This document shows, piece by piece, positions 2,514 through 63,184 of a DNA stretch of 64,000 nucleotides. This DNA comes from Pelagomonas calceolata. Lineage: Eukaryota > Sar > Pelagophyceae > Pelagomonadales > Pelagomonadaceae. A model generated the notes under the pieces. That model made no database searches, was not told the DNA's origin, and saw only the letters and a program-made list of their open reading frames with translations. The position numbers and the translations under genes were made by a program. The first letter of the stretch is position 1. Every line of letters begins with the position of its first letter. Location of the stretch: contig CAKKNE010000001.1 in the NCBI GenBank assembly GCA_918797485.1, positions 5,704,001-5,768,000 of the forward strand, written 5' to 3'.

Positions 2514-2533
2514 GCTAGTGTCTTACCGCTAGC
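2514..2533 (+). promoter_or_regulatory. Palindromic promoter motif, copy 1
   Basis: GCTAGTGTCTTAC is followed directly by CGCTAGC (no spacer). It sits between the divergent ARM gene (ATG 2200) and JmjC gene (ATG 2716). Confidence 0.6.
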
Positions 2534-2715
2534 TCCAGCCTGGCAAAACCACGCGGACTCACCAGAGCGACGCTTCGGGGCACGTCCGCCCGCGCACGAC
2601 TCATAAAAGTGACCGCTGCGTGGTTGCAGCAAAACTTTTTGGACGTCAGGCTAGCGTGCAAGGCTCATTGCAAAACTCTGCTGCTGCACGCAGCGGTGAC
2701 TCCTCGCGCGTAGCG

Positions 2716-4056
2716 ATGGAACAGGTGGTCGAAAACGCACCACTCCCACCCTCTCTGGCAGCTCTGCTTGCGCGCGAAGACTTTGCGGACGACGTCTTCG
2801 AGGGCGGCCGCTGCGCACACAGCGTGGGCGCGGCAATCGACTGCCCGGCGCTCGCGCTGGACCGCCTCCTCGCGGCCCTCGACGGGGAGTCGACGGTAAG
2901 CCCAAGCGGCGGCTACGGCTTTCCCGCGCTCGCGGCGAGCTACCGCCAGGGGCTCGACTTCCAGCTCGGACGCGTGAACGCGAAAGGCGGGTGGGACCGG
3001 TTCGACCTCTGGAAATACCAGTACGAGAACCTGCCGAGTAGCGAGACGGCCCGGCGCGCGCTCGAGGGCGGCTACTCGCTGACCATTCGCCACGCCGAGT
3101 GGCGCATCCCCTGCGTCTTCGCGGCGGCCGCCGCGCTCCAGCGCGCGACGGGCGCGCCGGTGCAAGCCAACATCTACGTCACGCCGCCGGACGAGCGCTG
3201 CGTGCGGCCGCACGCGGACCGCCACGACGTCTACGCCTGGCAGGTCTCGGGAGCCAAGACGTGGCTCGTGCGCGAGGCTCACGGGCCGCCGCCGCCCGTG
3301 CCGCCGCGCGAAAATAAACGCAACGGCGGCTGCGACCTGCCCGGCGCGGCGCCGTACCCGGTCGAGCGGGCCGTCGAGCTGCGCGCCGGCGACGCCCTCT
3401 ACGTGCCGCGAGGCGTGCCCCACCAGTGCCGCGCGTCCGGCGCCGCGCCGTCGATCCACGTGTCCTTCGGCAGCGACGTCCACATCCCTCTGACGTGGGA
3501 GGGCGCGCTCCACTGCGCGCTGCGGCGACGGCGGGCGTCCGCCCGGACTCACGTCGAGCTGCACTTTGTGGCGATGTCGACGTGCACGCGCCTGCGCCGC
3601 AGCTGCCCGCCGGCGGTCCTACGCGGCGACGGCGACGAGGCGCTCGCGGCGGCGGCGGACGAGCTCGGTCGCCTTGCGGCCGCCGCCGCCGACGCCTTGC
3701 TGTGGCGCGCCGGGCTCCCGGGCCGCGCCGCCGACTGGCTCGCGGCGCCGACGAACGGCGTCCTCGACTTCGTGAGGCTCGGAGTACCGTGGAGCGAGGA
3801 CGTGGGCTGTCGGACGACGCGGGGGCTCGCGTTCCTCGAGGACGACAGGATTGGGCACCCGGCTCATTTCGCGTTTCCGACGGCCGTCGGCCCCGTGCTC
3901 GTCGCGCTCCGGGAGCTCACCGCCCAAGCGACGCGCGACGTCCGCGTCACCGCGCTGCGCGACGTGTCCATGATGGCCCGCGCCGCCCGCGAGGAGGTCC
4001 GCCGCCGGGGCGCGGCCCTTGAGGGAGTCGGCCCTCCTCCTGGGGAGGGAGCATAA
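2716..4056 (+). CDS. JmjC/cupin-type 2-oxoglutarate oxygenase (ROX/NO66-like)
   Basis: 446 residues. The core resembles the JmjC-like cupin of ribosomal oxygenases (NO66/MINA53/bacterial ROXA): PHADRHDVYAWQVSGAKTW supplies the iron-binding HxD (about H166/D168). Then comes a GDALYVPRGVPHQ strand with the distal His (about H236), followed by SIHVSFG. Family members hydroxylate ribosomal-protein His or Arg residues using Fe(II) and 2-oxoglutarate; the substrate here is unknown. The C-terminal ~200 residues are Ala/Arg-rich, where the family carries a dimerisation and winged-helix part. The ATG at 2716 was chosen; the frame is open upstream to 2620 but has no ATG. Codon use is very GC-rich, like its neighbours. 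The promoter motif lies 182 bp upstream. Confidence 0.8.
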   Translation: MEQVVENAPLPPSLAALLAREDFADDVFEGGRCAHSVGAAIDCPALALDRLLAALDGESTVSPSGGYGFPALAASYRQGLDFQLGRVNAKGGWDRFDLWKYQYENLPSSETARRALEGGYSLTIRHAEWRIPCVFAAAAALQRATGAPVQANIYVTPPDERCVRPHADRHDVYAWQVSGAKTWLVREAHGPPPPVPPRENKRNGGCDLPGAAPYPVERAVELRAGDALYVPRGVPHQCRASGAAPSIHVSFGSDVHIPLTWEGALHCALRRRRASARTHVELHFVAMSTCTRLRRSCPPAVLRGDGDEALAAAADELGRLAAAAADALLWRAGLPGRAADWLAAPTNGVLDFVRLGVPWSEDVGCRTTRGLAFLEDDRIGHPAHFAFPTAVGPVLVALRELTAQATRDVRVTALRDVSMMARAAREEVRRRGAALEGVGPPPGEGA

Positions 4057-4216
4057 TGTATGTCCTGTGTACTTGGAAGCTTGCAAGTCGCTCATATACT
4101 GTTGTGCGGGGACTGATGGGCTTGCAAAAAAACGGGTTTTTCAAGCAGTCTGGCGCGCGCGCGCGGGCCTCTCCTGCGGACTCGCAGAGGCGCAAGGGCC
4201 GAAAACCAGCGAATTA

Positions 4217-4438
4217 ATGGCGCCAGACACCAGTGGATTGGAGAATTCAAAGACCTGTAGCGCCTGCGGCAAAATCAAAAGTCGAGTCGATTTTGGCAAG
4301 AAGCAATGGGCCGCCCGAGCGGTGCGACGATGTGTCGCCTGCGTGGAAAGCGGGGTCAAAGTGGTGTTTTGCGACCATGGTCGCGGCCGCGATTGCGCGG
4401 TATGCGACGCCGCGGCGGCGGCTTGGTACCTCGCGCAG
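4217..4438 (+). CDS. Zinc-ribbon exon, possible first exon of a chimeric gene
   Basis: From an ATG at 4217 the frame encodes about 74 residues with paired Cys motifs: TCSACGKIKSRVDFGKKQW, then RRCVACVESG and DCAVCD. These suggest a small zinc-binding module. The coding signal ends at CAG/GTAACG (4436-4444). That site is a good donor consensus for this frame and equally an acceptor (CGCAG) for the NhaC frame that follows in another phase. The exon is therefore either the start of a chimeric zinc-ribbon/NhaC transcript or an independent short gene whose other exons I cannot see. No transmembrane segment. Function unknown. Confidence 0.45.
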
Positions 4439-5523
4439 GTAACGAGAACACGGGCTGGAATGCTTCCGCTCGGCGCATCATCGGCAACGCCGATGCCTAC
4501 GGCACGCTCCTCTGGCTCGGCGGCTTCGGCATCATGTTCCAGATCGTCTTGTACGCGGTCCAGTACTCGAAGGAGTGGGGCGGCATGCTTCTCACGCCCT
4601 CCGAGACTATCTCCGGCGCGCTCGAGGGCACCAAAGACCTCATCGAGTGTACCGTCGTGCTCATGATGGCGTCGGCTACGGTGTGGAAATCGATGTACGG
4701 CGCGTCGATGGCGTGGCGATGCCGGTTCCTCACCGCTCGACGGAGCGACACACTGGTTCATTTTCCACACAGGTCTGCTATCGGCAAGATCTCGCAGCAG
4801 ATGATGTTACCCGACGCCGTCGTGGATCTGATTGGTGACTCTATCCCGGGCAAGGCGCTGCCGGTTGTGGTCTTCATCACCTCCGCCGTCATCGCGTTGT
4901 CGACGGGCTCCTCGTGGGCGACGATGACGATCGTCTTCCCGATCGCCATTCCCCTCGCCAACAACGCGTCGGGCGGCTCGCTCACGATCCGCCTCGAGAA
5001 CGTCATCGGCGCGATCCTCGGCGGAGCCGTCTGGGGCGATCACTGCTCCCCGATCTCGGACACGACCGTGCTGTCCGCCGCGTCGTGTCGCGTCAAGACG
5101 ATCGATCATGTTAAGACCCAGCTGCCGTACGCCTTCCTGGCCGGCTCGTGCGCGGCGGTCTTCGGCTACCTCCTCAACGGGTACGGCGTGCCCCACGAGT
5201 TGCTCGTCCTCGGTGCTTTTGCTGGAATGCCGTGGGTCTTCTACGCCGTGTCCATGATCCCCGGCTGGGGCGGCCCTACTCCTATCTACGACCCCGAGCA
5301 CGACAAGGTTGTCGGTGAGGGCTTCTACGGAGCGATGAATTCCCTCAAGCGGAACTGCGCGTGCGGCAAGAAGGGCGGGGATGTGGAGCCGATGAAGACC
5401 GTCGACAACGTCACCGAGACGGGGCACATCTCCCCGCGGGGCGCCATCTCCCCGATCTCGCACGGGCCGTCGGCGTCCACGAAGGTCAAGGTCACGCCGG
5501 GCATCGACGAGACCGACCTCTGA
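4439..5523 (+). CDS. NhaC-family Na+/H+ antiporter, N-terminal half missing
   Basis: Exons 4439-4682 and 4773-5523 flank an introner. The product matches the C-terminal half of NhaC-type antiporters (PF03553): IIGNADAYGTLLWLGG, ALSTGSSWATMTIVFPIAI and the signature HCSPISDTTVLSAAS, with about six membrane segments and a hydrophilic tail from about residue 270. Family members exchange Na+ and H+ and normally have 10-12 segments in 450-550 residues, so the N-terminal half is absent. Upstream lie only the zinc-ribbon exon and the JmjC gene. The 5' end is uncertain: the frame is open from 4306, and I start it at the acceptor-like CGCAG at 4434-4438. It could be a 5'-truncated duplicate or a chimera. 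It converges on the CRT-like gene with a 154-bp gap. Confidence 0.7.
4679..4772 (+). mobile_element. Introner 1 (in NhaC-like gene)
   Basis: Element ends are CGGTGTGGAAATC and TTTTCCACACAG. The flanking 8-bp duplication is GTCGGCTA (4671-4678) and GTCTGCTA (4773-4780), 7 of 8 identical. The intron removed is 4683-4772 (90 nt), phase 2. It has no stop codon in the gene's frame, so retention would read through. The internal block at about 4705-4746 is nearly identical to one in introner 3. Confidence 0.85.
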
Positions 5524-5677
5524 GCACAAGTTCCCCCTGCAGTTGACCATGAACGTCACTTCCCGTGACTGACGAGAATCAAATCATCGTCGTGTACACA
5601 AGTTCCTCCGCGGTCCTCGCGACCGCACACGACCCCTTCCCCCATGCCCATCTTTGATAAGACATACAACGTATTTA

Positions 5678-6850
5678 TCACACACTAGGCGAGGGGGTCC
5701 CGCCGATGAGTTCCGCGAGGGCTTCCCGGCTACGACTCCTCACACGCAGGATCGGCAACAAGAGCCGTTCGTGGAACGCGGGCTGATTGTGGACATGGAC
5801 ACGACGCCGCCGCGGAGCGAGGGGGTCTTGCTCGCTGACGTCGAAGCGCCGCCGGCGCAGCGCGACCGCGGCACTCGCGACGCCGCGTAGCGACACCTCC
5901 TTCGGCACGAGACTGTCCGATTCGTACAAGCTGAAGCCGACGAGGACGACGGCCAAACCGATGAGCGTCGTCGCTACTATCGGTTCTTGATACTGTCCGA
6001 GGATCGGGGCGCCGAACGCAAGTGTACTCAATGGTAGGAGCACGGCGTAGAGAATGGCCGTGAGCGAGGCGCCGCCGAGCTTGAGGACGACGATACCAGA
6101 AGTGTTGAGGATGAAGTTGTTCAGCACGTAGAGCGCGAGTAGCGACGTGCGGTACGCGTCGGCGCCCGTAGCAACGAGGACGGCGTCGTCCAGAAAGGTG
6201 CGCGTGGCCGTGCCGAGCGGCAGGCCGTCGGTGAGGCACTGCGCCGGAAAGAGCAAGAACCCGAACAGCAGCTGGAAGCACGACACGTACTGCGTGAGAT
6301 ATAAAACATGGACCTCTGAGTCGGCGAACCGCCACTCCTTGTAGACCGCCGAGAGGGCCATGGGAATGTTGCTCGCCCAGTAGATGAGGACGGCGCTGGT
6401 CTCGGCGCTCTCGCGGAACGCCGGCGCGACGACGATCGCCCCACCTATAAGGATGATGGCCGCGCCGAGCTTTTTTTTCGCGCCGTAGCGCGTCTTCAGG
6501 AAGACCGCCGACGCGACCATGGTGCATGGCACGAGCGACTGGCTGAGGAGCGTCTGGAGCTGGCCCGGCGTCCGCGCCGCGCCCAACGCGGCGCAGAGAC
6601 CGCCGAGGCAGTCGAGCAACGCCATCAACGCGTACGGCACCTTCGAGCTCGCCCGCATCTCGTCCGTGATGGCGCCGCGGACGGCGTACAGCGCGACGGC
6701 GCCGTAGACGACGAATAATGCATTGACCATTTGCATCGCGAACAGCGCGCTCGACGCGCCGTAGCTCGTGAAGGCGATCTTGTACAAGATATAATTGCTC
6801 GGCCCGACGGCGAGCATCAGACACATGGTTGGCACCAGCATGTTGGCCAT
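5678..6850 (-). CDS. CRT-like (chloroquine-resistance-transporter-type) membrane transporter
   Basis: 390 residues from the ATG at 6850; the frame extends upstream only with a TTG. About ten hydrophobic segments fit the DMT-superfamily CRT-like group (PF08627): MVNALFVVYGAVALYAV, SQSLVPCTMVASAVFLKTRY, AAIILIGGAIVVAPAF and LYLTQYVSCFQLLFGFLLF. The last follows YKEWRF, typical of CRT proteins. In plants these export thiols from plastids and in Plasmodium they act on the digestive vacuole; the substrate here is unknown. The C-terminal ~60 residues are basic and hydrophilic. It is divergent from the FAD monooxygenase, with a promoter motif almost exactly midway (7058). Confidence 0.85.
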   Translation of the reverse strand: MANMLVPTMCLMLAVGPSNYILYKIAFTSYGASSALFAMQMVNALFVVYGAVALYAVRGAITDEMRASSKVPYALMALLDCLGGLCAALGAARTPGQLQTLLSQSLVPCTMVASAVFLKTRYGAKKKLGAAIILIGGAIVVAPAFRESAETSAVLIYWASNIPMALSAVYKEWRFADSEVHVLYLTQYVSCFQLLFGFLLFPAQCLTDGLPLGTATRTFLDDAVLVATGADAYRTSLLALYVLNNFILNTSGIVVLKLGGASLTAILYAVLLPLSTLAFGAPILGQYQEPIVATTLIGLAVVLVGFSLYESDSLVPKEVSLRGVASAAVALRRRRFDVSEQDPLAPRRRRVHVHNQPAFHERLLLPILRVRSRSREALAELIGGTPSPSV

Positions 6851-7057
6851 CGCTTCGCGCGTCGATGGCGTTTTGTTCAAGTTTTGCTTAGGGAGAGCCT
6901 ACCTCTGTGAGAGGTCTACGCCGTACAACTGATCGCAAAACTCCTACGGCGCGAGCGCCGCAGCGCAATTAGTCGCTGCCTTGCTCTTGCTGCGCTAAGC
7001 GCCTAGGTGCCTAGGTACGGAGTTATTGCTATGCAAAGTCGGCTGCTTGCTTGGCTT

Positions 7058-7081
7058 GCTAGTGTCTTACAGGCCGCTAGC
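7058..7081 (+). promoter_or_regulatory. Palindromic promoter motif, copy 2
   Basis: GCTAGTGTCTTAC, spacer AGGC, then CGCTAGC. It is centred between two divergent start codons, about 207 bp from each (6850 and 7289). Confidence 0.65.
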
Positions 7082-7288: not shown

Positions 7289-9146
7289 ATGCTGAGGCAT
7301 CTCAGCAGGGCGACATTGACGCGAGGTCATGCGTTCGCCACCGGTGCCGCGACGCCGCGCATCGCCATCTGCGGCGCGGGCGTTTCGGGACTGACGCTCG
7401 CCGGCATTCTGTCGAACGGCACGCGCGACGTCCAACTCACGGTCTTCGAACGAGCGCGGCGCGACCGCGACCAGGGCTACGGCCTGGACCTCGACGAGCA
7501 CGGCCAAGAGGCGCTGGTGCGCGCGGGCGTCTACGACCGCTACTGGGACATTTCCTACCCGTATTCCGACACCGCGGTCGGCTACCAGTTCAGCGGCGGC
7601 GAGCCGCTCTTGAACATCTTCTGGCCGAGACTGACGATGAGGCTATTCCCAGAGAGCAGTGCCGCGAGGCCCGAAACGAACCGCGGCGGTCTCCGGGACA
7701 TTTTGCTCGACGCGCTCGCGGCGCGCGGGAACACGGAAGTGCACTACGAGCGCGGTGCCTGGGACTGCCGCCGTCTGCCGCGAGGTCTCGGGCGGCTAGG
7801 TGCGGGCGGCGCCGAGCTCCTCGATCGCGAGGGGAAGACCCTGGGTGAATTTGATCTCGTGATCGACGCGATGGGCCTGCACTCGCCGCTGCGGGATCCT
7901 GTGTGGAAATCAAATTTCGGGCGCATTTCTCAGGATAACCTAACTCACTGCTTGATTTTCACACAGGCGGGATCTGCGCGTCGTCGACTCGGTCGGCAAG
8001 CACTACGTGGGCGAGATGTTGATTCATGGCGTGATCAACGATATTGGAAAAACGTGTCCGTCGGTCGCGCAACGGATGGATCGGTTCGGGACGTGTTTCA
8101 CGCTGGGACGCGGGTACCATGTCACGATGCAGCGTTTCGGCGCGGGCGCCGACGACAAGCGCACGTGCTTGTTTTATCACATCAACCGCCCCGACGGCGA
8201 AGGAGGGGTATTGCGGGAGATGGGCATCGACAAGCCTACCTCCCGTTCCACCGGCATCTTCACGGGCGACAAGCTGCGCGCCGCGAAGGAGTGGATTTTA
8301 CAAGATATGCACGAGTCCTTCGACGAGGTGTGGCGCGACGCGATACGCGGGTTAGAACGAGTCACCGTTCGCGGCAAGTACATGCACGGCGACGATACCA
8401 AGTTACGCGAGGGGCTGACCCTGCCGCTCGTGTGCATCGGCGACGCGCCGCGCAACTGTGGCGTCGGCGGCTGTGTGGAAATCAAAATTTTACGGCGAGT
8501 TCGTGCTGAATCATCGCGTCGTCCTCCACGCCATCGACGCGACGCCTGCTCGATGGCGTGGAGATGCCGGTTCCTCACCGCTCGACCGAGCCAGGACGGC
8601 CGCGCCATCGCCGAGCACCCGAGGCACTGGTTGATTTCCACACAGGTCGGCGGTGGCGGCAACCTGGCCATGCAGGACGCGAACGAGCTCGCGACAATTC
8701 TGGAGGCCGACGACGCCTTCGACGAGGCGACGGGCGCAGTCAATCTCCCACCTCTGCGCGCCGGCGAGGCCATCATGTTCGAGCGCAAGGAAGAGTTCCA
8801 CGTCGAACGGCTGAAGCCTCCCATGAACACGCGCGAGATGGTCGAGGCCCGGGGCCGCGGGCCCTTGTCTCCCCCCGGCGTCCAATAGTAACGATTGCTC
8901 CGCGTCGACGGCGTCGAGCCGACGCGACCACTTCCCCCGCGCAGCGACTGGGAGGATTTCCGCGAGTTTAACCCCTTACCCTCGTGGGTGCCGTTCCCCG
9001 TGGCGCGGTTCGCGGTCAAGCGCTTCGCGGCGCTCACGAAGGCCTGGTACGCGTGGGAGCGCAAGCGCGGCGGCGGCGGCACTTGCAAAGGCAATGCCCC
9101 TATCTACGCGAGCGTCGAGAGGCTACTTGCCGAGCAGAAGAAGTAA
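7289..9146 (+). CDS. FAD-dependent monooxygenase
   Basis: Exons 7289-7902, 7967-8474, 8646-8866 and 8945-9146 join in frame to about 514 residues. The first two introns are introners; the third boundary pair (8867/8944) is my least certain. An N-terminal MLRHLSRATLTRG leader looks mitochondrial or plastid-like. The FAD-binding GxGxxG is at residues 29-34 (CGAGVSG). LRDILLDAL and LVIDAMGLHSPLRD follow, then CIGDAPRNCGVGG and GGGNLAMQDANELATIL, the GD and GxGxN-AMQDA motifs of aromatic-ring hydroxylases. Substrate unknown. Both introners left four extra residues in or near conserved motifs. The stop codon lies 3 bp from the stop of the convergent gene at 9150. Confidence 0.85.
7899..7966 (+). 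mobile_element. Introner 2 (FAD monooxygenase, intron 1)
   Basis: Ends CTGTGTGGAAATC and GATTTTCACACAG. Perfect 8-bp duplication GCGGGATC at 7891-7898 and 7967-7974. The intron removed is 7903-7966 (64 nt, phase 2). Splicing gives LRDPVRDLRVV, where the pre-insertion reading would be LRDLRVV. Confidence 0.92.
8471..8645 (+). mobile_element. Introner 3 (FAD monooxygenase, intron 2)
   Basis: Ends CTGTGTGGAAATC and GATTTCCACACAG, a perfect 13-bp inverted repeat. Perfect 8-bp duplication GTCGGCGG at 8463-8470 and 8646-8653. Intron 8475-8645 (171 nt, phase 0) has no in-frame stop. Inside is a perfect 14-bp inverted repeat (8524-8537 with 8550-8563). Confidence 0.93.
8524..8563. repeat. Perfect 14-bp inverted repeat inside introner 3
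   Basis: CTCCACGCCATCGA (8524-8537) pairs with TCGATGGCGTGGAG (8550-8563) across a 12-nt loop. The same core recurs in most other introns of the window. Confidence 0.85.
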
Positions 9147-11531: not shown

Positions 11532-11555
11532 GCTAGCGGCATGTAAGACACTAGC
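11532..11555 (-). promoter_or_regulatory. Palindromic promoter motif, copy 3
   Basis: On the minus strand: GCTAGTGTCTTAC, spacer ATGC, CGCTAGC. It is upstream of KIN17 (ATG 11346) and about 85 bp downstream of the eL6 stop. Confidence 0.6.
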
Positions 11556-12209: not shown

Positions 12210-12992
12210 GGTTTTATGTCGCGTGCCTGCGCGTGGGGGGGCGGGGTCACTGCTCTGTTCGTGTGGTCGGCGGCGCGTGCTCGACCGTCTTCGGCTACGG
12301 AGCCCACACGCCCGTCCGAGCGACTTAGCCAGGGCACCGCTGCGACTGGAGTCGTCCAGCGCCCGGCTTTTAGCCCGCCGCGGGAGCTAGCGCGTCCGCG
12401 CGCGCCGCAGGCAGCAGTGCAGGCTCAACCGGTCTAGCTCGCTCGCTAGCCGTCGCGGCCGCTGCTCGCTCGTCTCGGCGGTCGACAGCTGTCGTCTGGT
12501 AACGCTGTGAAGGGAGTTGTCTCGGTGGCACCGTATCACACGTCTTATAGCACGCTTACTGCCTGAATCGCCGGGACCGCGAGCATGAAAGTCTAGTGGA
12601 CCTAAAGAGCTTTTGATCTCTCCTCCTATGGCCAGGACCCCGTGCGGCACGAGTCTGGAGACCCTTGGGCCCTCGAGGTTGCATTTCGCGTGCTTGCTAG
12701 TGTCTTACTGGACGCTAGGCTCGACCACAAAATCGCCTCGCAAAAAGGACTGCGTTATCGCAGCCGAGAGCAAGCGCCGCGGCTTGTAGAAGCACTTGAC
12801 GCCAGCGCAAAGCGGCTGACAGCTTCCGACCGCATCCGCCCTAGCAGCGGCAGAGTTAGCTCAAGTCACCACAAAATAATAAGTCAGCGCAGACGCCGCC
12901 GCGGCGACCGCGCAGCTCGGTCCGTTCACACCGCGAAAGGAATCAAACCACAAAAATAAACGCAGAGAATCCCTGCACAAAAACGCGAAACC
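12210..12992. other. Divergent promoter region of RPL6 and V-ATPase A
   Basis: About 780 bp with no convincing gene. It contains the palindromic motif at 12696. The stretch just before the V-ATPase start is A/C-rich (12930-12990), a plausible 5' UTR. Confidence 0.6.
12696..12719 (+). promoter_or_regulatory. Palindromic promoter motif, copy 4
   Basis: GCTAGTGTCTTAC, spacer TGGA, CGCTAGG. It lies between eL6 (ATG 12209) and V-ATPase A (ATG 12993). Confidence 0.6.
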
Positions 12993-15001: not shown

Positions 15002-15169
15002 GTTGATGAGGGGGGCCTATAAGTGTGGATAGATATCTTCGCGGTCCACGTCTTTTCGTAATGGCAGGCTTCTTCCGTCTCAGCAGTAGAAGCGCCTCGG
15101 CGACGCCCTCCCGAGAAGTGAGGCATCTTCGGACGCTCGCGCTTAGCGTGTTCGACCGACTCTAGAGTT

Positions 15170-15721
15170 TCATGCACTCACACACAGCTTAAAGTTTACA
15201 GCCGTCCTGTGCCTCGCCAGCGCCAGTACGGCGGCCGGCCCTTGCGTCGGCGCGAGAGGCGCGGGCGCCGGGCGCGGCGTCGTAGCCGACGACGGCGGCG
15301 GCCGCAGCTCGTCCTGGGGCGGCACAACGTCCGCCAATGCCGCGGCGGGCGCGGCCGCGTCCGTAGAAGGCGCCTCGCGCACGATCTTCGGCTCGCTGCG
15401 CCGTGACGCGCCACCCGCGCTAATTTTCATCATTAGCGCGTGGGAGGCGGGCACGGCGGCTCACTGAAGAGGTCTAGGGGAGAAGCCGACGACCTGCGCA
15501 GGGACGGTCTCAATTATGACTGATTCGGGCACGCGCGTCCTCTCGACGCCCTTCCGCTGCACGCGGCGCTCACGTCCTTCTCTCTCGCAGAGCTCCTGGG
15601 GCGCGACGAGGCGCTCATCGTCCTCAGCTCGCCGCGGGTCCTTCGCGAGGGCGCGGGAACGAAGCCGCGTCGACCACATCAAGTCGAGATTGAAGGCGTC
15701 CACTCTTGCTAAAAAGGACAC
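15170..15721 (-). pseudogene. Possible gene remnant of unknown type
   Basis: Two abutting minus-strand open stretches (15461-15721 and 15170-15454) read as Arg/Glu-rich and Ala/Pro-rich protein. An acceptor-like GTCCTTTTTAG precedes the first and CCTAGACCTCTTCAG separates the two, so they could be exons of one small gene. No domain was recognised, and both could be chance open frames in GC-rich DNA. Confidence 0.2.
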
Positions 15722-17189
15722 GGCGTGTCACGGCTTCACTCTCAAAAGCGGCTTCTAGGCCGCTTAAAGTTGCGGGCGCAGCTCGACGCGCCTTCTACGC
15801 GGCGTCGCTGAACGTGCGTCGCGGGCGAGCTGGTCGCCCGGCTCGTCGCGGCGGTCGTGCGGCCGTGCAGTCGTGCGGTCGTGCGGTCGGCCGATGGACC
15901 TGCGTTGGCGCCGTCTCGACGGGCCCGCGTTCGCGGCCGAAGCTCTCACTACAACTCGATCGCGGCCGATGCGCTCCGCTGCGGCCGGCGGCGGCCTCGA
16001 CAGCCCGGCGCTGCCAGGGGCGCTGTTTTTGAATCGATGCGATAGCGCGAAGGCCAGGCTGGCGCGCTCGAGCTAAAGGCTGCATTGCGCAGCGCTGTCG
16101 AGCTCGCCAAGCTGCCAGCGCCGGCGTATGCTATTGAAATCTTCCCTACGCTGGGTCGCACCGGTTCTGCAGCACGAATGTGGCCACAGGCACACCTCGC
16201 AGCGGCAGAGATCAAATCGTGAAGCTCTCAAATTTTTTTTTGTTTTTTTTTGCCTCAAATCCAGCGTGCGCTCTCGGATACGTCTCCGGAGCGCAGACGC
16301 ACGCCTGGGGCGGCCCTGGCCTGGCTGGTTGGCATTTGGCCCACCATCGGTGCCGCGCCGCGGCGCGCGCGCAGTTTCGCGCGCGGCGCGGACGGCAGGC
16401 TTGATTTCTCATTGCAGTGCACTGCTGCGCGCGCTGGCTTCACGCACAAATGCGTGCGCACAGCGTTTGCAAACAGACTTTGCGAGAGCCTCGGATGTAT
16501 AGACCTGCGCGAGCGCTGATTTCGGCCCTCTCGCAAACTCCTCGCGCGTCGCTAGGGACGCTGTCGCCTCGCCCTAAAACGTTGGGACGGCTAAAGGACG
16601 CTTGCGCGAGTTAGCGTTAAAACGGGTTTTACCCAGCCAGCTTCACGCGCGTGCTGAGCCGCAAAGACCAGCCTCTGAGCGGTGCAATTGCTGTTGAGAC
16701 ATGCCTCGCACCCCTTGCGAAGTTTCAACAAGCTTGGATCGCATCGCCGGCGCCGCGGGGCCGCATGCAGCCGCCTTGACGGCTGGCTCTGCAGCAGGGG
16801 CAGGAGCCGACGCGCGCGCTCGCCGGCGGCACGCAGCCGCCTTAGCGGTGCGCCGCGGAACTTGTGAACCCGGGGAACCGGTCGCGGCGGTCGTAACTCG
16901 ATGAAAATTTCAGCGCGGCGGGATGGTGATCACGCGAGGCGTGCTGGACTCGCCCAGCCGCCAGACGTACATCATCGACCGCGCCGGTGCCCGCTCGTGG
17001 TCGGCGTAACGGCGGTTGCCTTCCGGTCGTAGTTCAACGGTTGTCAGTTGCTACGGGCCTCGCCGCGAGAGGTGCGGCGTTTGCGAGACCTGGAGGCGGT
17101 CCAAACGCGGTGTGGCGAAGCCCGGATCTGGCGATAGGAGACCGGCCTCGGGGCAGCGTTGACGCCCGACGTCCGCGTCGAGGGCGATT

Positions 17190-17360
17190 TTGAGGAGGAC
17201 GCCCGCAGCCACGCCCGACGATATCCGCGAGGCCTTGACGATGCTCGAGGAAACGGCACGGATCGCGCGGCGCGTCTTCGGTACAGCGCACCCGACCACG
17301 ATAGGAATTGAGCACGACCTGCGAGTCTTCCGAGCAAATGCGCCGCCGCCGCGCGCGTAA
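17190..17360 (+). pseudogene. 3' fragment of the MYND/RING-CH/TPR family
   Basis: The frame ending at the TAA 17358-17360 encodes DDIREALTMLEETARIARRV, then FGTAHPTTIGIEHDLRVFRA. It closely parallels the C-terminal TPR unit of the gene at 61948 (RIIADVLKNERRVLGPAHPE, then TLSTQRDLEKVRAVLRA). A TGA closes the frame upstream near 17160, and no MYND or RING part is present nearby. It is therefore a detached last exon or a pseudogene fragment. Confidence 0.6.
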
Positions 17361-17471
17361 GAGGAAGACTCAGCGGAGCGCGCCCAGCGAGACGCCGTCG
17401 ACGCGTGTAAGAGGAAGGAGACTCAGCTTTTAGTCCAGGGGGGGAAAGGGAAATCACACAAATCACCAGAA

Positions 17472-26078: not shown

Positions 26079-26102
26079 GCTAGCGTCGATTGACACACTA
26101 GC
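26079..26102 (-). promoter_or_regulatory. Palindromic promoter motif, copy 10 (variant centre)
   Basis: Minus strand: GCTAGTGT, a changed centre, then CGCTAGC; the total is 24 bp. The ends are conserved while the CTTAC centre is not. It is between divergent ATGs at 25964 and 26233. Confidence 0.5.
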
Positions 26103-29524: not shown

Positions 29525-29544
29525 ACTAGTGGGTCTTAACTAGC
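29525..29544 (+). promoter_or_regulatory. Degenerate promoter palindrome, copy 12
   Basis: ACTAGTGGGTCTTAACTAGC: the CTAGTG, GTCTTA and CTAGC blocks are kept with changes. It is 167 bp upstream of the GT61 start. Confidence 0.35.
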
Positions 29545-30881: not shown

Positions 30882-30905
30882 GCTAGTGTCTTACAGTACG
30901 CTAGC
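30882..30905 (+). promoter_or_regulatory. Palindromic promoter motif, copy 5
   Basis: GCTAGTGTCTTAC, spacer AGTA, CGCTAGC. It is about 190 bp from each of the divergent ATGs at 30689 and 31093. Confidence 0.65.
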
Positions 30906-35300: not shown

Positions 35301-38275
35301 CTCGCGCTCCAGCTCGTCGCGACCGTCGTCCTCATCGCCGCGTGGTTCGCCGTGCTTTTCGGCGTCAAGGCCCTGCGGACGCGCTTCCACCGCGACTGGT
35401 TCGAAGCCGTGGCGATCCAGTTCGTGTTCTTCTTCGTGACGATGAGCCGCTTTGTTGGGATTCACCAGATCACGCTGCCGGACCCGCTCTTTAAGTACAT
35501 GTGGGCGCTCGATTTTATTTCCCTGGACCTAACATCAATCCAAAGTGTCCTGAGGTGCGGCTCCAAGGTCACGTACTTTGACTTCTTGTTGTTCTGGACC
35601 CTGCTCGCGCCGGCGCTGGTCGTAGTCGTGGTGGTGTTCGCGATCCTCCGGGGCCTCGTGACGGTGTACGTGCGCGGGCCGGGGGTGGAGGAGGCGGGGG
35701 CGCCGCCCGACCCGGCCACCGACAGCCGCCGCGGCGAGGCGCGCTTCGTGTCGGACCGCGAACTCGAGGACGAGGAGCAGCTGCCGCAAGTCCAGCGCCT
35801 CGCGCTGAGCGTCCAGCGCGACCTCGACGCGGGGCTCATGGTCGTCTTCGCCGTGCTCACGATGTTCCACAGTGGCATCTGCAGCACCATCTTCAACACC
35901 TTCAACTGCTCTATCAACTACAAGATCGCCGACGGTCAAGGCAGCAGCGGCCTCCGATATCTCGCGGCGGATTATACTATTAGCTGCAGTACGAAGTACG
36001 TAAAGCGGCCGCGCGCGCCGGTGGAGTACGACGCCTACTACGACGCGGACTCGGCCGCCGAGCACGCGTTCTACGAGACGTACGCCACCGTCGCCCTCGT
36101 CGTGTACGCGATCGGCGTGCCGCTGACCTACGTCGCCTGGATGCTGCGCGCGCGGCGCCTCGCGCGCGACGAGCAGCGTCCCGTGGACGACGGCGCGCTC
36201 GCGTTCCTGACGCGCTCCGTGAAGCCCGAATTCTGGTGGTTCGAGGTCGCGGCGCTCGTCGCGCGCAGCCTCGTGACGGGCATGTTCCTCTTCGTGAGCC
36301 CGGGCGTCTCGCTGATCATGTCCTTTTTCGTCATCGTCGTGCACCGCACGCTAGTCTTGCAGTTCCGGCCCTACGCCTCGACGGGTCTCCAGCTCGTCGT
36401 CGAGGCGCTGATGCGGGCGACGTTCTCGATCGCGCTCGTGGCCGTGGCCGTCTACGGCAGCGACCCCATCCTAGACAGCACGACGGCTTCTGTCGTGGCA
36501 ATCCTCGTGTTTGCCCTCAACTTGAGTGTCCTGCCCTTCGCCTACCGGGCGTGGCGGACGGAGTCGTACCGGTCCGTCGCGCGGCGCCTGCGGCGGCGCG
36601 AGCCCGTCGACATCGACGAGGTCGAGGCGCTGCTCGGGGGCGCGCACAAGCAGGACATCGCCGAGGTCGTGCGCAAGTGCGGGCGGCACGCGCTGCGCCA
36701 GGCGTTTGATGGACACCTCGACGACAAGGACTGGGACTACTTCACGCACACAATTTTAAAGCTCGAGGGCGTCTGGACCGAGGACGTCGCCGCCGCGGAC
36801 GTGCTCCAGTGGCACGTCAAGGCGATCCTGTACCGAGCGAAGGCCTACGTCCGCAGCCACCTTCAACTCAAGTTGAACGCGCGCGAGGTCGACGCGTCCG
36901 TCGACGTCGTCGCCGGCCCGCTGCGCAAGAGTTTAGTCGGAGGCGCCTCGCCGGTCGCCGCATATCAAAAGCTCGGCCGGCCGGCCGGCGCGAAGGCGCT
37001 CGAGCAGGTCTACGCCCTGGCGCTGCGGCCCTACTTCTTCCTGGAGCACGAGGAGGGCGCGGTCGTCGGGGGTTTGGTTCGGACGATGTCGGTTCTTGGT
37101 TTAATGCAGGGCGGGCATACCAACTCGAGCCTCCTGGCGAGCATGAGCCGCTCGCAGCTCTCGGCGCGGTCGCTGCTGCGCAACTCCGGCAGCCACTCTT
37201 CTCCCGTTGCGGCCGAGAGCAAGGACGAGAGCCCGTCGAAGGTGGCCGAGCGCTTCAAGCACGCCGCGAAGAAGATTTCCGCGGTAAGTAGAGTTGCGGC
37301 GAAAGAGCGGCCGCGGCACCTCCCGCGGTTCCTGGACTTGGCCCTGGTGGCCCACGACCTCAATCAACGCGCGCAAGCGCGCATCGCGACGGCCGCGCGC
37401 GACATCATGGAGGAAGAAGAGGGCGGCGCGACGTTGGCCAAGCTCGCGTCCTTCGACCTCGGGGACCACCACCAGCCCGCGCTGCGGAGCAAGAGCCTCC
37501 ACGCCTTCAAGGAGGAGGTCGGCGGCGCGGCGCTCGAGGTTGAGTTGGATGCGGCCGTTTGCGTCGAGACGTTGCACGCGCTGGCGACGGCGGCCTTCCC
37601 CGCCTTTCGAGCTGCGCTCGAGAAGCTGTTTCCCCCAGACACGGAGGGCGTCGAATTGGAATGTGACGCGGACTTCGCCGTCAAAGCCCCGGCGCGCATG
37701 CGGGCCAAGGTGGACGAGTATAGAAGAGAAAACGAGACGGTGTGGCCGCGCGCGAAGCGGCTCAGCGACTGCCTCCGCGCGTCCCGGACCGTGTGGAAAT
37801 CAAATTTCGGGCGCCCCACGCCGTCGACGCGATAAGCTAACTCACCGGTTGATTCCCACACAGGTCGGTCGTCACGGCCGACGCGGCGCGCACGGTCGCC
37901 GCCTACGAGGCGCTCTCGGACAGCGGCGCGTTCACGGTCGTTCGCCTGAAGAACAAATTGGCCGAACACGCCAAGCCGTACTGTATGCATGTCAATTTGA
38001 AATTTCAGGCGCCGGGCCTGGCTGCGATGACGGTCGAGGTCCAGATCGTCCCGAAGGCCATCTACAGCGACCAGAAGACGTCGCACAGACTGTACACGGT
38101 CGCGCGCGCCAACAGCTACGCCGCGTACCGGGGCCTGGCCGAGGAGGACAGCGACGACGACGACGACGACGACGCGGACGTCGCGGGCGACGAGGAGGAT
38201 CTGGGGGTTCTGACGCCTACCGACGCGCGGTCGCCCGCCGAGGTGCCGGTCTGGAAGTTCTGGGCGCGCGAGTAA
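32334..38275 (+). CDS. Multidomain receptor-like membrane protein: TauA-type SBP, CUB/EGF, TM bundle, RelA/SpoT-like tail
   Basis: Exons 32334-37792 and 37864-38275 give about 1956 residues. A signal peptide (RRQLLWLMLAAAASA) is followed by a bacterial TauA/NMT1-type substrate-binding domain (residues about 20-330: ITVRLGYFGEAQPFQVACA, GSTAHYHMLYTRKLF, AAGSIDGAFVWGGVMESMKG). Then CUB-like (372-485), EGF (CGNGKCDTVSGLCICDAGYG), CUB, EGF (CGGHGTCEGGTCVCSDGYGG), CUB and a Cys-rich region ending GPLCLHCKKGSF. About eight membrane helices lie at 987-1415. The cytosolic tail (about 540 residues) ends in a part resembling RelA/SpoT-like synthetase folds (FTVVRLKNKLAEHAKPY, AAMTVEVQIVPKAIY). It reads as a surface sensor, perhaps of sulfonates; the ligand and activity are inferred. 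Confidence 0.85.
37789..37863 (+). mobile_element. Introner 5 (receptor-like gene)
   Basis: Ends CCGTGTGGAAATC and GATTCCCACACAG; body TTTCGGGCGCCCC as in introner 4. The intron removed is 37793-37863 (71 nt, phase 2). Flanks GTCCCGGA and GTCGGTCG are degraded (4 of 8). Removing 12 nt restores the conserved-looking LRASVVTAD. Confidence 0.85.
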
Positions 38276-50282: not shown

Positions 50283-50307
50283 GCTAGTGTCTTTACAGGC
50301 CGCTAGC
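50283..50307 (+). promoter_or_regulatory. Palindromic promoter motif, copy 6
   Basis: GCTAGTGTCTTTAC (one extra T), spacer AGGC, CGCTAGC. It is 148 bp upstream of the phosphomevalonate kinase start, in a one-way promoter. Confidence 0.6.
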
Positions 50308-52484: not shown

Positions 52485-52504
52485 CCTAGCGGTAAGACAC
52501 TAGC
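52485..52504 (-). promoter_or_regulatory. Palindromic promoter motif, copy 7
   Basis: Minus strand: GCTAGTGTCTTAC followed directly by CGCTAGG, the short form as in copy 1. It is between divergent ATGs at 52133 and 52619. Confidence 0.6.
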
Positions 52505-54078: not shown

Positions 54079-55767
54079 TTATTTCTGTAGGGGCGTCTGT
54101 TTGCGCTTTAGCGCGCACCAGGCGTCCCTCATCTTCCCAATGAGCTCTTGGTCGGAGAGCCCGGGGTATTTCGTACTGTACACCTTCCAGTGGCGTAGCG
54201 ACCACTCTTTGAACTCACGCCACTCCCCCTCCGCGCGGCCAACTCGTTTTTGCATGAGATCAAGATCGCTGCGATTCCGGCAAGTGTCGGGATGCATCGG
54301 GCCCAGAGTTCGTGTATTTATTCGAAGAACATCCTCCATGATCGTAACAGCCTTGCGAGCCTCGTATATATTGCTCGTTTCATCGAACAAGACTGCTTTA
54401 GCAAACATTTCGCGGAGGTCGAGAGCTAGAGCGGAATCCTCCCCCAAAATGCTGAAAACTCGGGGCATTAACTCCTGCGCAAAGGATTTTGCCTCCTGTG
54501 CTGCTTCGACAGTTTTACACGATATTAGCACGCCTACGATGGTAACTCCAGATTGCAAGGTGCACTTATTGTTGCGCCCGAAAATAGTCTGAGACTTGGC
54601 GTAAATGCTTCGATGCATTTTTAGCGCCGCCTGAAGCTGCCCGAGCTGTTTATAGCAACCGGCGATATTATACATGTCCTGCACGATGCAGCCTTCTGGC
54701 GCCCCAAACTGCAGGCCCATGGACAGGTGAGCCTGGTGCACGCGAATTGCTTCGCTTGGGTCCCTTAGGCTGGTTGCTAGAACCGTCATCGCATTCACCC
54801 GAGAGTTACAGTCCTCCGGCTGGCCCGCGTATGTTTTCCAACAGCCCCACCCGAGCGCGCACATCACAGGGCCACGGTAATTTTGCTTGCACAGACTACA
54901 ATTGCTCCATCGCCCCCACCTCAATTCCGAATTAATTGCCTCGGCGTCCAAATTATTCTCCTCGGCCTCCGCGACCAAAACTTTCGCCTGCTCGACCAGA
55001 CATGACACGTGCGCGAAGCCCGCCGTCCCACGGCACGCACACATGCGCACGAGGCCCTCCTTTGTTTTCCAGTGGAGCGCCTGCGTGCAGACGTAGCACG
55101 TCTGGCCCTTCGTGTCGTCGGCGCACGCCTCGACCGCGACCGCGACGGCCTCCTTGTATTTTTTGTCTGCATTATACTGTTCAGCGTTGCCGCCGCGGTG
55201 TATTTTCTTACACAACTGCTTGTGGCCGCGGCGCCAGTGATCGTGCTGGCATGTCGAGTCACAATATCTCACTTTGCATCGTACGTAGGCGTCGGCGTCG
55301 TCGTCCGTCGTGCCTTCCGGGAGCTCGTAGGGCTCCATCTTCTCCGGGGGGAGGGCGTCGAACTGCTCCTGGAACTTGGCGACCTTGGCCGTGTACCTAG
55401 ACGACGTCGCGTCGATGGCGTCGCATCGATGGCGTCTCGTCGATGGCGTCGCGTCGATGGCGTGGACTCTGTGGTGGAGGTTTCTGAGACGCCGGACGGC
55501 ACTTCGTGATATCCTCCTCGTTGCCGGCGGATTTGGCCCGCTCTAGCTTGCCCGTGAACTTCTCGATCTTGCCCTTCAGGAAGTCGCGCGGGACTTCCTT
55601 CCTGCGAGGCGCGCGGAGCTCGCGTCGACGGCGTTTTGCGCGACGTACTGTCGACGGCGTTGCGAGACGTGTTGTTGGCAGCCGCTGGTTGTTGACAGCC
55701 GCTGGCGTGCGCGACACGAGAGCGCGATAGTAGACGCCGGCCCGCGCTCCTCGTCGCTGTCGCTCAT
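54079..55767 (-). CDS. MYND/RING-CH/TPR family protein with a foreign N-terminus
   Basis: Exons 55767-55697, 55601-55503 and 55396-54079 join in frame to about 495 residues. The first exon pair is my inference from splice consensus. The N-terminal ~100 residues (KGKIEKFTGKLERAKSAG, FQEQFDALPPEKMEPYELPE) are not found in the sister gene at 61948. They run straight into the second half of a MYND finger (CKVRYCDSTCQHDHWRRGHK), whose first CxxC is missing. A RING-CH-like module follows (CYVCTQALHW, CACRGTAGFAHVSCL, CSLCKQNY), then kinesin-light-chain-type TPRs ending TRTLGPMHPDTCRNRSDL. It is probably a ubiquitin-ligase-like adaptor; chimeric origin is likely. A promoter motif is 256 bp upstream. 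Confidence 0.7.
55397..55502 (-). other. Intron built of tandem core repeats
   Basis: Minus-strand donor GTGCCG and acceptor GTCTAG, 106 nt, phase 2. Splicing gives EEDITK-YTAKVAKFQE. About half of it (55410-55465) is four tandem copies of a 15-17-nt unit around TCGATGGCGTC, the core of the other introns. Confidence 0.7.
55410..55465. repeat. Tandem array of the TCGATGGCGTC unit
   Basis: Four consecutive copies of (G/A)TCGATGGCGT(C/G) spaced 15-17 nt. They lie within the intron of the MYND-family gene. Confidence 0.8.
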
Positions 55768-56023: not shown

Positions 56024-56047
56024 GCTAGCGTAATGTAAGACACTAGC
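56024..56047 (-). promoter_or_regulatory. Palindromic promoter motif, copy 8
   Basis: Minus strand: GCTAGTGTCTTAC, spacer ATTA, CGCTAGC. It is between divergent ATGs at 55767 and 56338, in a 570-bp region with no other recognised content. Confidence 0.65.
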
Positions 56048-57947: not shown

Positions 57948-58657
57948 CTATGGCGCGGCCTCCAATGCGAGGCGGTGCATCTGCGACCAGCCCATCAAGG
58001 AAGGGTATCGGCCGTCCCGGGCGCGTAGAAAAATCATGAATGCTATATATATACCCATAGACATCGACGCCATCTCCGCGTCCGAGACTTGGCGGATGCG
58101 CGTCGAGTCGAGCGGGCTCAAGAATATATCAGCAATGAACTCGGCGCAGGCCGCTGCGATGGAGTTGAGGAGGAAGCGGTTGTCCCACGCGCCCTGGTCG
58201 CCGTACGCTTGGGCGAGGTTGACCTTGAAGAACTCGAACCCGCCGAACTTGAACGAGCCCTGCAACGCGTACGCTGCCGCCGTCGCGGACATTCCCGTCG
58301 TGAGCGCGCCCGCGCCCTCGCTCGCGATGATTTCACGGGTCGCGCCGAGGAGGCCCTTGCTCCCGAGCTCGGGCACCAATTGCATGCGCGTCTTGACGAA
58401 ATCAATCGGCGTGGCGCCGCCGTGCGTCACCTGTGTGGAAATGAAGCAGTGCGTCGCGTCGAGGACGTGGAGGGTCGACGCGACGATTCCGCACGAGGGC
58501 CGCTCGCCGCTCGGCGCTCGCCGCTCGGAGTCTCGGACGGCGCCGTGATTTCTACACAGCGCGTTACCGAGCAGCAGACGCCGCCGGCCAAGAATCCTTT
58601 GAGATAGTAGTCCGGCGTGTACAGTGAGTAGTCGTAAACCGCGCTTTTGACGGCCAT
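57948..58657 (-). CDS. Mitochondrial phosphate-carrier-like protein, C-terminally truncated
   Basis: Exons 58657-58556 and 58430-57948 give 194 residues. SLYTPDYYLKGFLAGGVCCS, VTHGGATPIDFVKTRMQLVP, AYALQGSFKFGGFEFFKVNL, ACAEFIADIFLSPLDSTRIR and QVSD match the SLC25A3/Mir1 group, which imports phosphate into mitochondria. The family has about 300 residues in three repeats. Here the match ends in the second repeat, just after the PLDSTR motif, and the last ~45 residues (MSMGIYIAFMIFLRARDGRY) look unrelated. The core-like GATGGCGTCGATG sits at that breakpoint (about 58057-58077). It is probably a broken duplicate or mis-terminated gene, unlikely to transport. Confidence 0.75.
58431..58559 (+). 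mobile_element. Introner 7, antisense to its host gene
   Basis: Plus-strand ends CTGTGTGGAAATG and GATTTCTACACAG; the host gene is on the minus strand. The minus-strand intron is 58555-58431 (125 nt, phase 0). Flanks TGCGTCAC and CGCGTTAC match at 6 of 8. A short internal duplication CGCTCGCCGCTCGG occurs near 58500-58530. Confidence 0.85.
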
Positions 58658-59281
58658 GGTCTCGCTACTTGTCTGAGAGCTTTTATGCTCTCTGGTGTTT
58701 CCCGAGCTAACGGCTCTCGGAGTTTCAGTCTCGAACGGCTTACGTTGTTCGTAAGGCCTACGCGCGTGATCGCTACGCCGCAAACTCGTTCGAGTCGGCG
58801 AGACAAATGAGAGGCTGTGGAGCTGAGGCTGAGATTTAGCCTCGCGCGCGCCTGCTCAATTCGCTATCGCCGCCTCTGAAAACACCGTTCCGCCCGTCTC
58901 TGAGAGGACTGAGAAGCATAGAAGAGGTGTCCGTAACGACTAGTGACTTTACTATGCTAGCTAATTATTTTGCAAAAAGCGGAGACGCGCCCTGCTGCGG
59001 CCCCTCAGCGCTCGTTACGCAGCGCTGACACTGTGCGCGGCACAAATAACCCGCAGCAGCGCCAACTCTGCAGCGGTGCCGCTCGCGCTTGCCTGTGGAG
59101 CCCGCGCCGGCGAGAAACTCCTGCGCAGCCTCGCGCCGCGCGCGCGACCGGCGCCGCAGCGCTGACGCCGTGAGCGCAGCTGTATACGCAGTTTCATTCT
59201 CTAAAACCGCGAAGCCGCACCGCGCTGCGAGCCGACGTCCAGACGCGGGTCGACTCGGGCGCCGCCGCGGCTCCTTGAAAC
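58658..59281. other. Divergent promoter region of the phosphate carrier and AP-3 beta
   Basis: 624 bp with no gene. It contains the diverged palindrome at 58939 followed by an AT-rich patch (58955-58978). Confidence 0.5.
58939..58961 (+). promoter_or_regulatory. Palindromic promoter motif, copy 11 (diverged)
   Basis: ACTAGTGACTTTAC then TATGCTAGC. CTAGTG, CTTTAC and GCTAGC blocks are kept. It is 281 and 320 bp from the divergent ATGs. Confidence 0.45.
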
Positions 59282-61900: not shown

Positions 61901-61947
61901 CTTCTACCGGCGTCGTCGTAAGTATGATAGGTGTTACTTGCTAGTCT

Positions 61948-63099
61948 CTATGCGCGCAGGACCGCACGCACTTTCTCCAGATCCCTCTGGGTGCTGAGCG
62001 TCTCCGGGTGCGCAGGTCCAAGGACCCGCCGCTCATTCTTAAGGACGTCAGCTATTATCCTCTCTGCCTCCGCGACGTCTTCTCGTGAGGCAGCAGACCG
62101 GAAGCATACATTGCCCAAAATTGCCCGGAGAGTTAGAACTCGTACATGGTTTAACTTCGCAGTGGGCCCCAAAACGCCTATTGCCATATCTATGGTCTGC
62201 CGCAGGAATGACTTTGCCTCGGCGTGATGACCTAAAACGATGAGAGAATTCGCTAAGTTAATAGCAATCTGCAGCCGGCCCTCGAATGGATAGTTGAACG
62301 CCTCCGCCTTGTAGTACATTTCGCGTTTCATTGACAGGGACTTTTCGTGCCAACGGAGGTCAGCATAGCAAGCGGCGATGTTCATCATTGTATTCAATTG
62401 TAATTCTACCTTTGCTTTCTTATGTAAAGTCTGTAGCTCAGACAATTGCGCCTCGAAAACCCTGAGCGCTTCTTTGCTAAACTTCTCCTTCTCCTTCTGC
62501 GGACTTCCCAGTGTAAACGCCGCTCGTAAACCTGATCCGAGTATGGCCATCGCATGGAACCGGTGACAGTCTGTTTTTTCCCTTTCCACGTACGTCTTCC
62601 AGCACGCCCACCCAAGCGCACACAACACAACGCCGTGGTAGCGTTGCTCGCACAAGCTGCACGTGTGCCACCGTTCCCACCTCGCTTCCTTCGCCTTGAG
62701 GCCCAAATTGTTCTCCTCGCCCTCCGCGACCAAAATCTTCGCCTGCTCCGCCAAGCACGATACATGGGCGAAGCCCGACGTCCCGCGGCACGCACACCCG
62801 CGCACGAGGCCCTCCTTCGTCTTCCAATGGAGGGCCTGCGTGCAGATGTAGCACGTCTGGCCCTTCGTGTCCGCCGCGCATTTCTCGACCGCGGCCGCGA
62901 CGGCCTCCTTGTATTTTTTGTCGGCGTGATATTGCTCCGCGTTGCCGCCGCGGTGTATTTTCTTACACATTTGCTTGTGGCCGCGGCGCCAGTGGTCATG
63001 TTGGCAAGTCGAGTCACAATAGCGAACTTTACAGCGTACGCAACGCGGCGCGTCGAGGGCCAGTGGGGCGGCGCAGGCGGCGCAAGTTGTGAGGATCAT
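61948..63099 (-). CDS. MYND/RING-CH/TPR family protein, complete copy
   Basis: 383 residues. The MYND finger is whole (CAACAAPLALDAPRCVRCKV, RYCDSTCQHDHWRRGHKQMC). It is followed by a RING-CH-like module (CYICTQALHWKTKEGLVRGC, ACRGTSGFAHVSCLAEQAK, CSLCEQRYHG). About four TPRs of kinesin-light-chain type end RRVLGPAHPETLSTQRDLEK. It shares long identical blocks with the gene at 54079 and the fragment at 17190, so this is an expanded family here. It is probably a cytosolic ubiquitin-ligase-like or adaptor protein; the target is unknown. A motif copy is 62 bp upstream. The 3' end is 47 bp from AP-3 beta. Confidence 0.85.
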   Translation of the reverse strand: MILTTCAACAAPLALDAPRCVRCKVRYCDSTCQHDHWRRGHKQMCKKIHRGGNAEQYHADKKYKEAVAAAVEKCAADTKGQTCYICTQALHWKTKEGLVRGCACRGTSGFAHVSCLAEQAKILVAEGEENNLGLKAKEARWERWHTCSLCEQRYHGVVLCALGWACWKTYVEREKTDCHRFHAMAILGSGLRAAFTLGSPQKEKEKFSKEALRVFEAQLSELQTLHKKAKVELQLNTMMNIAACYADLRWHEKSLSMKREMYYKAEAFNYPFEGRLQIAINLANSLIVLGHHAEAKSFLRQTIDMAIGVLGPTAKLNHVRVLTLRAILGNVCFRSAASREDVAEAERIIADVLKNERRVLGPAHPETLSTQRDLEKVRAVLRA

Positions 63100-63161
63100 T
63101 TTTTGATGGCGCCGAGTCGGCGAGGGTTAAGCGGGCGCGTTATGTGTTGGACGACTCGCAG

Positions 63162-63184
63162 GCTAGTGTCCTACGACCGCTAGC
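63162..63184 (+). promoter_or_regulatory. Palindromic promoter motif, copy 9
   Basis: GCTAGTGTCCTAC (one change), spacer GAC, CGCTAGC. It lies in a 206-bp divergent promoter, 62 bp from the ATG at 63099 and 121 bp from the ATG at 63306. Confidence 0.6.

Follow-up and report, generated by a model that had tools for sequence, protein, structure and literature searches.

A recurrent, almost palindromic motif in gene-start regions of Pelagomonas calceolata, predicted to act like a general regulatory factor site

What is the long, almost palindromic motif that recurs upstream of genes in a 64,000-nucleotide stretch of the pelagophyte Pelagomonas calceolata (assembly GCA_918797485.1, contig CAKKNE010000001.1, positions 5,704,001 to 5,768,000 of the forward strand; the whole stretch is hereafter the window)? 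An earlier note on this DNA had described a palindrome confined to promoters and had read it as a protein-binding site or a core promoter element serving both directions. Rewritten, the consensus is GCTAGTG-TCTTAC-N0..5-CGCTAGC, a total of 20-25 bases. A left part of 13 bases, whose core varies at its second position (T[C/G]TTAC), is joined by a flexible linker of 0-5 bases to a right part of 7 bases, CGCTAGC. The motif is probably a recurrent promoter-proximal element, predicted from its sequence and placement to be a double-stranded protein site of 20-25 bp that works like the site of a general regulatory factor. The window has a GC content of 60-66%, compared with a value near 63% given for P. 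calceolata (PMC9481584), and contains eukaryotic genes and short introner-like repeats. GC content, these repeats and the MYND/RINGv/TPR gene family all point to a pelagophyte.

To locate the motif relative to genes, we used models built from Pfam hits, open frames and a composition hidden Markov model (HMM) blind to the motif, with start codons then picked by hand. Regions were counted in the window and in seven algal-like contigs of a metagenome-assembled genome (MAG), G002, which are described below. A score-only scan allowing up to 3 mismatches in 20 returned 19 matches: 18 in gene-start regions, one at a contig edge, and none in coding or convergent DNA (L016:7929 was counted as edge). 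There were thus 18 strong matches in 17 kb of gene-start DNA versus none in about 101 kb of coding DNA, and the reversed motif, used as a control, gave no match in the window and contigs at up to 4 mismatches. At 4-5 mismatches, three gene-start, two coding and one edge match were found; because coding and edge matches appear at this level, 3 mismatches was considered the safe limit. Three weak copies, all in gene-start regions, were accepted (58939, L014:483 and L015:8486); L014:7635 (edge), L017:7954 and L015:5651 (both coding) were not.

With the weak copies included, the 21 copies occupied 12 of the 19 divergent and 9 of the 21 tandem regions, or 21 of the 40 gene-start regions, and none of the 17 convergent regions. 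The difference between gene-start and convergent regions was significant for the strong matches (18/40 vs 0/17; Fisher P = 4e-4) and for all copies (21/40; P = 7e-5). In the window, copies were found in 9/12 divergent (8 without 58939), 2/9 tandem and 0/11 convergent regions, and in the contigs in 3/7, 7/12 and 0/6, respectively. Coding segments called by the composition HMM overlapped none of the 11 window copies. Convergent regions were short (median of 80 bp over 17 regions, 5084 bp in total), so that absence from them is a weak test. An unbiased word search of the 40 gene-start regions ranked AGACACTA first, in 11 regions versus 0.22 expected, and the top five 8-mers were all pieces of the motif. 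Among later-ranked words, ATGGCGTG and similar ones resemble, in our reading, the introner-like repeat, while CTCGTAGA and other lower-ranked words occurred in 2-4 gene-start regions each.

Distances to start codons (n = 33) ranged from 62 to 486 bp, with a median of 199 bp, and only two were under 100 bp. The 12 divergent copies lay close to the middle of their regions, with a mean deviation from the centre of 0.095 (P = 5e-5 against uniform placement; P = 0.004 with 60 bp excluded at each end). The neighbouring genes were functionally mixed, and included ribosomal protein L6e, V-ATPase B, KIN17, a WD40 protein, a mevalonate pathway enzyme, adaptin and transporters, and, in contig L014, a decarboxylase, a thioesterase and a pseudouridine synthase. 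The earlier note had placed every copy upstream of a start codon and none in coding exons or between two gene ends, with 9 of 12 divergent regions occupied, often midway; our own gene models reproduce each of these points, with the reservation already made for convergent regions.

The inventory in the window was established by a both-arm scan in which the spacer between the arms could vary freely from 4 to 13 bases; observed spacers were 6-11 bases, most often 10. Eight copies had perfect arms (2514+, 7058+, 11555-, 26102-, 30882+, 50283+, 56047- and 63162+) and two had a single arm mismatch (12696+ and 52504-). Minus-strand copies are cited here by their high coordinate, and in the earlier note by the low one. 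In 30 order-2 Markov simulations of the window, no perfect-arm copy and a mean of 0.1 one-mismatch copies were obtained. Similarly, the 13-mer GCTAGTGTCTTAC had 9 window matches at up to 2 mismatches, versus 0.72 expected from shuffles. Information content was about 36 bits over 25 aligned copies, a value biased upward since the copies were gathered by consensus. The copies in the window are as follows.

2514..2533, plus strand: spacer of 6, perfect arms and core; divergent region between an ARMC5-like gene (-, Pfam score below cut-off) and a JmjC_2 gene (+).
7058..7081, plus strand: spacer of 10, perfect; divergent region between a CRT-like gene (-) and an FAD-monooxygenase-like gene (+, our own reading, no Pfam hit).
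11532..11555, minus strand: spacer of 10, perfect; tandem region between L6e (-) and KIN17 (-), in sense orientation, 186 bp before the KIN17 ATG.
12696..12719, plus strand: spacer of 10, one arm mismatch; divergent region between L6e (-) and V-ATPase B (+).
26079..26102, minus strand: perfect arms, variant core TGTCAATCGA; divergent region between a WD40 protein gene (-, PRP17-like in our own reading) and an LRR gene (+).
30882..30905, plus strand: spacer of 10, perfect; divergent region between a patatin gene (-) and a VWA-like gene (+, Pfam score below cut-off).
50283..50307, plus strand: spacer of 11, perfect arms, core TCTTTAC with an extra T; tandem region, in sense orientation, 149 bp before the phosphomevalonate kinase ATG.
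52485..52504, minus strand: spacer of 6, one arm mismatch; divergent region between an EF-hand protein gene (-) and a DUF7810-like gene (+, Pfam score below cut-off).
56024..56047, minus strand: spacer of 10, perfect; divergent region between a MYND/RINGv/TPR-like gene (-) and a gene without assignment (+).
58939..58961, plus strand: borderline copy, ACTAGTG-actttacta-TGCTAGC, two arm mismatches; divergent region between a mitochondrial carrier gene (-) and an adaptin gene (+).
63162..63184, plus strand: spacer of 9, perfect arms, core TCCTAC; divergent region between a MYND/RINGv/TPR-like gene (-) and a gene without assignment (+).

All nine strong copies of the earlier note are thus present. 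Of its three weaker ones, 26079 has perfect arms and differs only in its core. The copy at 58939 is borderline: about five matches with two arm mismatches are expected by chance, and it was therefore accepted on its placement and on its form, ACTAGTG...TGCTAGC, which it has in common with L023:2968. The candidate at 29525, with three arm and five core mismatches, was rejected, because matches with three arm mismatches were no more numerous than chance predicts (59 observed, 63 expected). A core with TGTC in place of TCTT, between intact or nearly intact arms, was observed at 26102 (-), L014:483 (-) and L015:8486 (+); these copies may form a second class of site.

The contigs were reached through an exact scan of GTDB species genomes, which found the motif in four stretches (L001-L004) from MAGs ERR599032, ERR599052 and MED672, taken as marine. 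L002 was algal-like throughout and lies in G002, on the same contig as L014. By 4-mer profile against the window, 8 of the 129 G002 contigs were algal-like (0.876-0.972), whereas the other 121 were below 0.80 and held no copy by exact arm pattern (contig numbers run to 183; the 129 were read whole or in part, together with part of a 130th). The algal-looking contigs are L014-L017, L023, L029, L040 and L106. L149 (C18), which was added on account of the copy in it, is probably a ninth, and this copy likewise lies between divergent open reading frames. In L015 and L017, introner-like repeat ends were 88-92% identical to those of the window. The algal-like contigs thus sample a related genome independently of the window. 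L106 (0.876, no copy) and L149 were left out of the region counts; the copies in L001/L026, L003 and L004 entered the 25-copy alignment and were likewise outside these counts, and a possible copy of unclear origin, L027 (G003), was not used.

A bacterial or viral element was rejected as an explanation, the motif not being found in 417 other bacterial genomes or in two scans of viral contigs. L001 and L004 are contigs of bacterial MAGs titled Spirochaeta and Desulfobacteraceae. In both, algal-like DNA (L001 2001-4000 and L004 6001-7515; 4-mer correlation 0.84-0.93) is joined to bacterial-like DNA, which in L001 is present on both flanks. These joins probably reflect chimeric assembly; transfer is not excluded. 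In L003, the motif lies within the last few hundred bases, a stretch whose origin is not assignable.

The orientation of the copies and the form of their half-sites bear on what could read them. In tandem regions, three copies were in sense orientation (11555, 50283 and L023:2968) and six were antisense (four in L014, L015:5384 and L017:2707); without the weakest copy, these numbers were three and five. Such mixed orientation is evidence against both a leader-RNA element and a directional core element. A directional element of the 5' untranslated region was considered, since almost every copy in the window can be taken as sense to one gene or another, but it is disfavoured by the antisense copies in L014, L015 and L017. 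Oomycete core elements are marked by a sense bias and by a location no more than about 100 nt from the start codon; neither was observed here. The description as a core promoter element is therefore not supported by copies 62-486 bp from start codons with no fixed tandem orientation. Service in both directions is no more than possible, 9 of the 21 placed copies being in tandem regions, where just one gene starts.

The two half-sites are related but unlike. The base following CTAG was T in 25/25 left half-sites (CTAGT) and its counterpart was C in 25/25 right ones (CTAGC); alignment columns 6 (T) and 20 (G) were invariant among the 25 copies. Because the copies had been gathered by consensus, symmetric forms were searched for separately: the T/T and C/C versions had no perfect match, compared with 12 for the observed T/C form. 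The half-sites are thus not interchangeable, as those of a homodimer palindrome would be, and the T[C/G]TTAC core is itself asymmetric. The term palindromic, used previously, holds as an approximation and fails for these systematic differences. Outside full copies, the left half GCTAGTG was found in no gene-start region, once in convergent and twice in coding DNA. The right half CGCTAGC occurred alone eight times in gene-start regions (one palindrome being counted twice) and five times in coding DNA. Solitary CGCTAGC copies in gene-start DNA were always in regions with a full copy and never in regions without one (L014:2293 (-), L014:4412 (+), L017:2791, L023:2894, and window 2656 (-), 12392 (-) and 12444 (+)); part of this distribution may reflect avoidance of TAG in coding sequence.

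Overall, these features suggest the following mode of action. A sequence-specific nuclear protein would read the double-stranded site. As the half-sites are related but not interchangeable, it would not be a plain homodimer but a heterodimer, or a single protein in which several modules contact DNA and are flexibly linked. Once bound, the protein would keep the intergenic region open and would mark neighbouring start sites or set them apart; read-through from the gene upstream may be blocked as well. Action like that of a general regulatory factor is suggested by the position about 200 bp upstream, the midway placement in divergent regions, the occurrence in either orientation and the unrelated neighbouring genes. 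Two properties of such sites were found here, namely presence at many unrelated genes with absence from gene bodies (no coding match at up to 3 mismatches) and independence of orientation to the gene. The sequence, its over-representation, the lack of clear coding copies, the independence of orientation, the absence of covariation and the unlike half-sites are observed here, whereas binding, the identity of the protein, nucleosome displacement and any effect on transcription are inferred. A more specific version is possible but doubtful: that this asymmetric bipartite element is lineage-specific and acts as the main organiser of about half of all promoters, divergent and tandem, in a group of marine picoalgae, where a putative multi-module protein would read it in a role like that of Reb1 or Abf1.

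Several observations weigh against a general regulatory factor-like site. The motif was missing from 19 of the 40 gene-start regions. Flanking GC did not differ between promoters with the motif (0.585; n = 21) and without it (0.605; n = 17; P = 0.16), and so did not indicate any composition peculiar to open chromatin. When the linker changes by 2-5 bp, the half-sites are rotated relative to each other, which a rigid complex would not tolerate. In addition, the start codons were picked with the motif positions known, the G002 sample was partly selected, that MAG having been found through the motif, and the invariance of alignment columns was partly built in by consensus collection. Three of the 21 accepted copies have five mismatches, and taking only weak matches in gene-start regions favours our own reading. 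Finally, 2470 of the 5084 bp of convergent DNA belong to one stretch without a gene model (15002-17471); counted by base, the chance of finding none of 21 copies in convergent DNA was 0.004, and 0.05 without this stretch.

Four other explanations were weighed. The motif could be read by a transcription factor specific to one pathway or condition, and its presence in only 21 of the 40 gene-start regions fits such a regulon; the mixed functions of the neighbours, from L6e, V-ATPase B and KIN17 to adaptin and others, make this rather unlikely. A bound protein could also act mainly as a Reb1-like boundary or roadblock that stops read-through or separates promoters, the effect on genes being secondary. 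The central position in divergent regions would suit this role, as would the two tandem copies of the window, both 81-85 bp past the upstream stop codon. However, six of the seven other tandem copies lie 198-661 bp from the upstream stop and five of the seven are nearer the start codon, and none of the 17 convergent regions, albeit short, contains the motif; we regard this explanation as clearly unlikely.

An origin as the remnant or tail of a mobile element (a short inverted-repeat unit), or as a sequence acted on by a domesticated transposase or recombinase, is suggested by the near-inverted repeats flanking a spacer and by the introner-like repeats, short mobile introns, in the same window. 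It is nonetheless very improbable: apart from a weak GCTT preference, the 20-base flanks of the 25 copies had no homology and no target duplication visible by eye, the ends of the introner-like repeats (GTGTGGAAATC...) are unlike the motif, and no clear copy lies in coding sequence. The absence of target duplications reported earlier was thus borne out, and placement in gene-start regions supports the earlier preference for a protein-binding site over a mobile-element tail. An RNA hairpin in 5' leaders has hardly any likelihood. The arms can form a stem of 7 pairs, one of them G-U, on the motif strand, which at 2514 folds at -8.4 kcal/mol (z = -3.3) versus -6.4 kcal/mol for the other strand. 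Nevertheless, six of the nine tandem copies are antisense to the gene; moreover, no pair was changed on both sides and the outer pair was broken in 8 of the 24 distinct rows of the 25-copy alignment, and because the arms do not covary, no hairpin was retained. Rfam gave no match at gathering score in the window.

Among known systems, the long asymmetric sites of the animal multi-zinc-finger factors REST, CTCF and ZNF143, which consist of two blocks with variable spacing and in some cases lie at promoters, resemble the algal motif in form and differ from it in sequence. Like the yeast Reb1, Abf1 and Rap1 sites, the algal motif is a sequence-specific site present in many unrelated promoters; unlike them, it is longer, has two half-sites that differ from each other and are flexibly joined, and belongs to a very distant lineage. 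Its sequence looks unrelated to the yeast consensus sequences. By analogy, it may work like the sites of the Reb1/Abf1/Rap1 family, of which we do not consider it a member. The Reb1 motif is enriched between divergent transcripts separated by about 200 nt and is also found between tandem genes (PMC7618759), and Rap1 represses divergent transcription regardless of motif orientation (PMC6602560). The oomycete elements INR, FPR and DPEP (YCAYTYY, MWTTTNC and SAASMMS) are also recurrent promoter elements of a stramenopile group. As described in PMC3599244, they are orientation-biased and commonest within 50-100 nt of the start codon, whereas the algal motif is unrelated in sequence, has no fixed orientation and lies further upstream. 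A promoter motif is also described from a pelagophyte-associated system, the giant virus AaV of Aureococcus (PMC5917014); this early motif, AAAAATGA, is viral, A/T-rich and unrelated in sequence.

In the open-access literature, including work on pelagophyte, stramenopile and Nannochloropsis promoter motifs, we found no published description of the motif, in agreement with the earlier note, which knew of none of this form; subscription papers and preprints were mostly outside this search. When the motif letters themselves were searched for, the matches listed concerned subjects unrelated by title, and one of them, on diphthamide, held the full 13-mer. The main text of the P. calceolata genome paper contains neither the word promoter nor the word motif, and across the literature searched the promoter grammar of these marine algae seems to be essentially uncharted. 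What is new is the sequence, the lineage and the long two-part form with unlike half-sites; the kind of element, a promoter-wide factor site, is already known. An element of about 36 bits in this sample, present in about half of the gene-start regions and recoverable there by string search, would offer a direct handle on the putative binding factor. It would also aid promoter annotation and transgene building, and would be a test of the independent origin of general regulatory factors in distant eukaryotes.

Other features of the window were also observed. Short introns that resemble introners and have inverted ends (GTGTGGAAATCAA ... TTGATTTCCACACAG) were present at 4681-4772, 8473-8645 and 37791-37863, and single introner-like ends at 7901 (+) and 20719 (-). 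The three delimitable units measure about 92, 173 and 73 bases, respectively; for comparison, introns of P. calceolata peak at about 210 bases, and the Aureococcus sp. example in PMC9860276 measures 77. Between 15001 and 17472, about 2.4 kb have no detectable coding signal, the rest of the window being compact. Finally, 54825-55285 and 62586-63040, within 8 kb of each other, belong to MYND/RINGv/TPR-like genes that are 81% identical in DNA over 461 bases, and in our own gene models both genes start from motif-bearing divergent regions.

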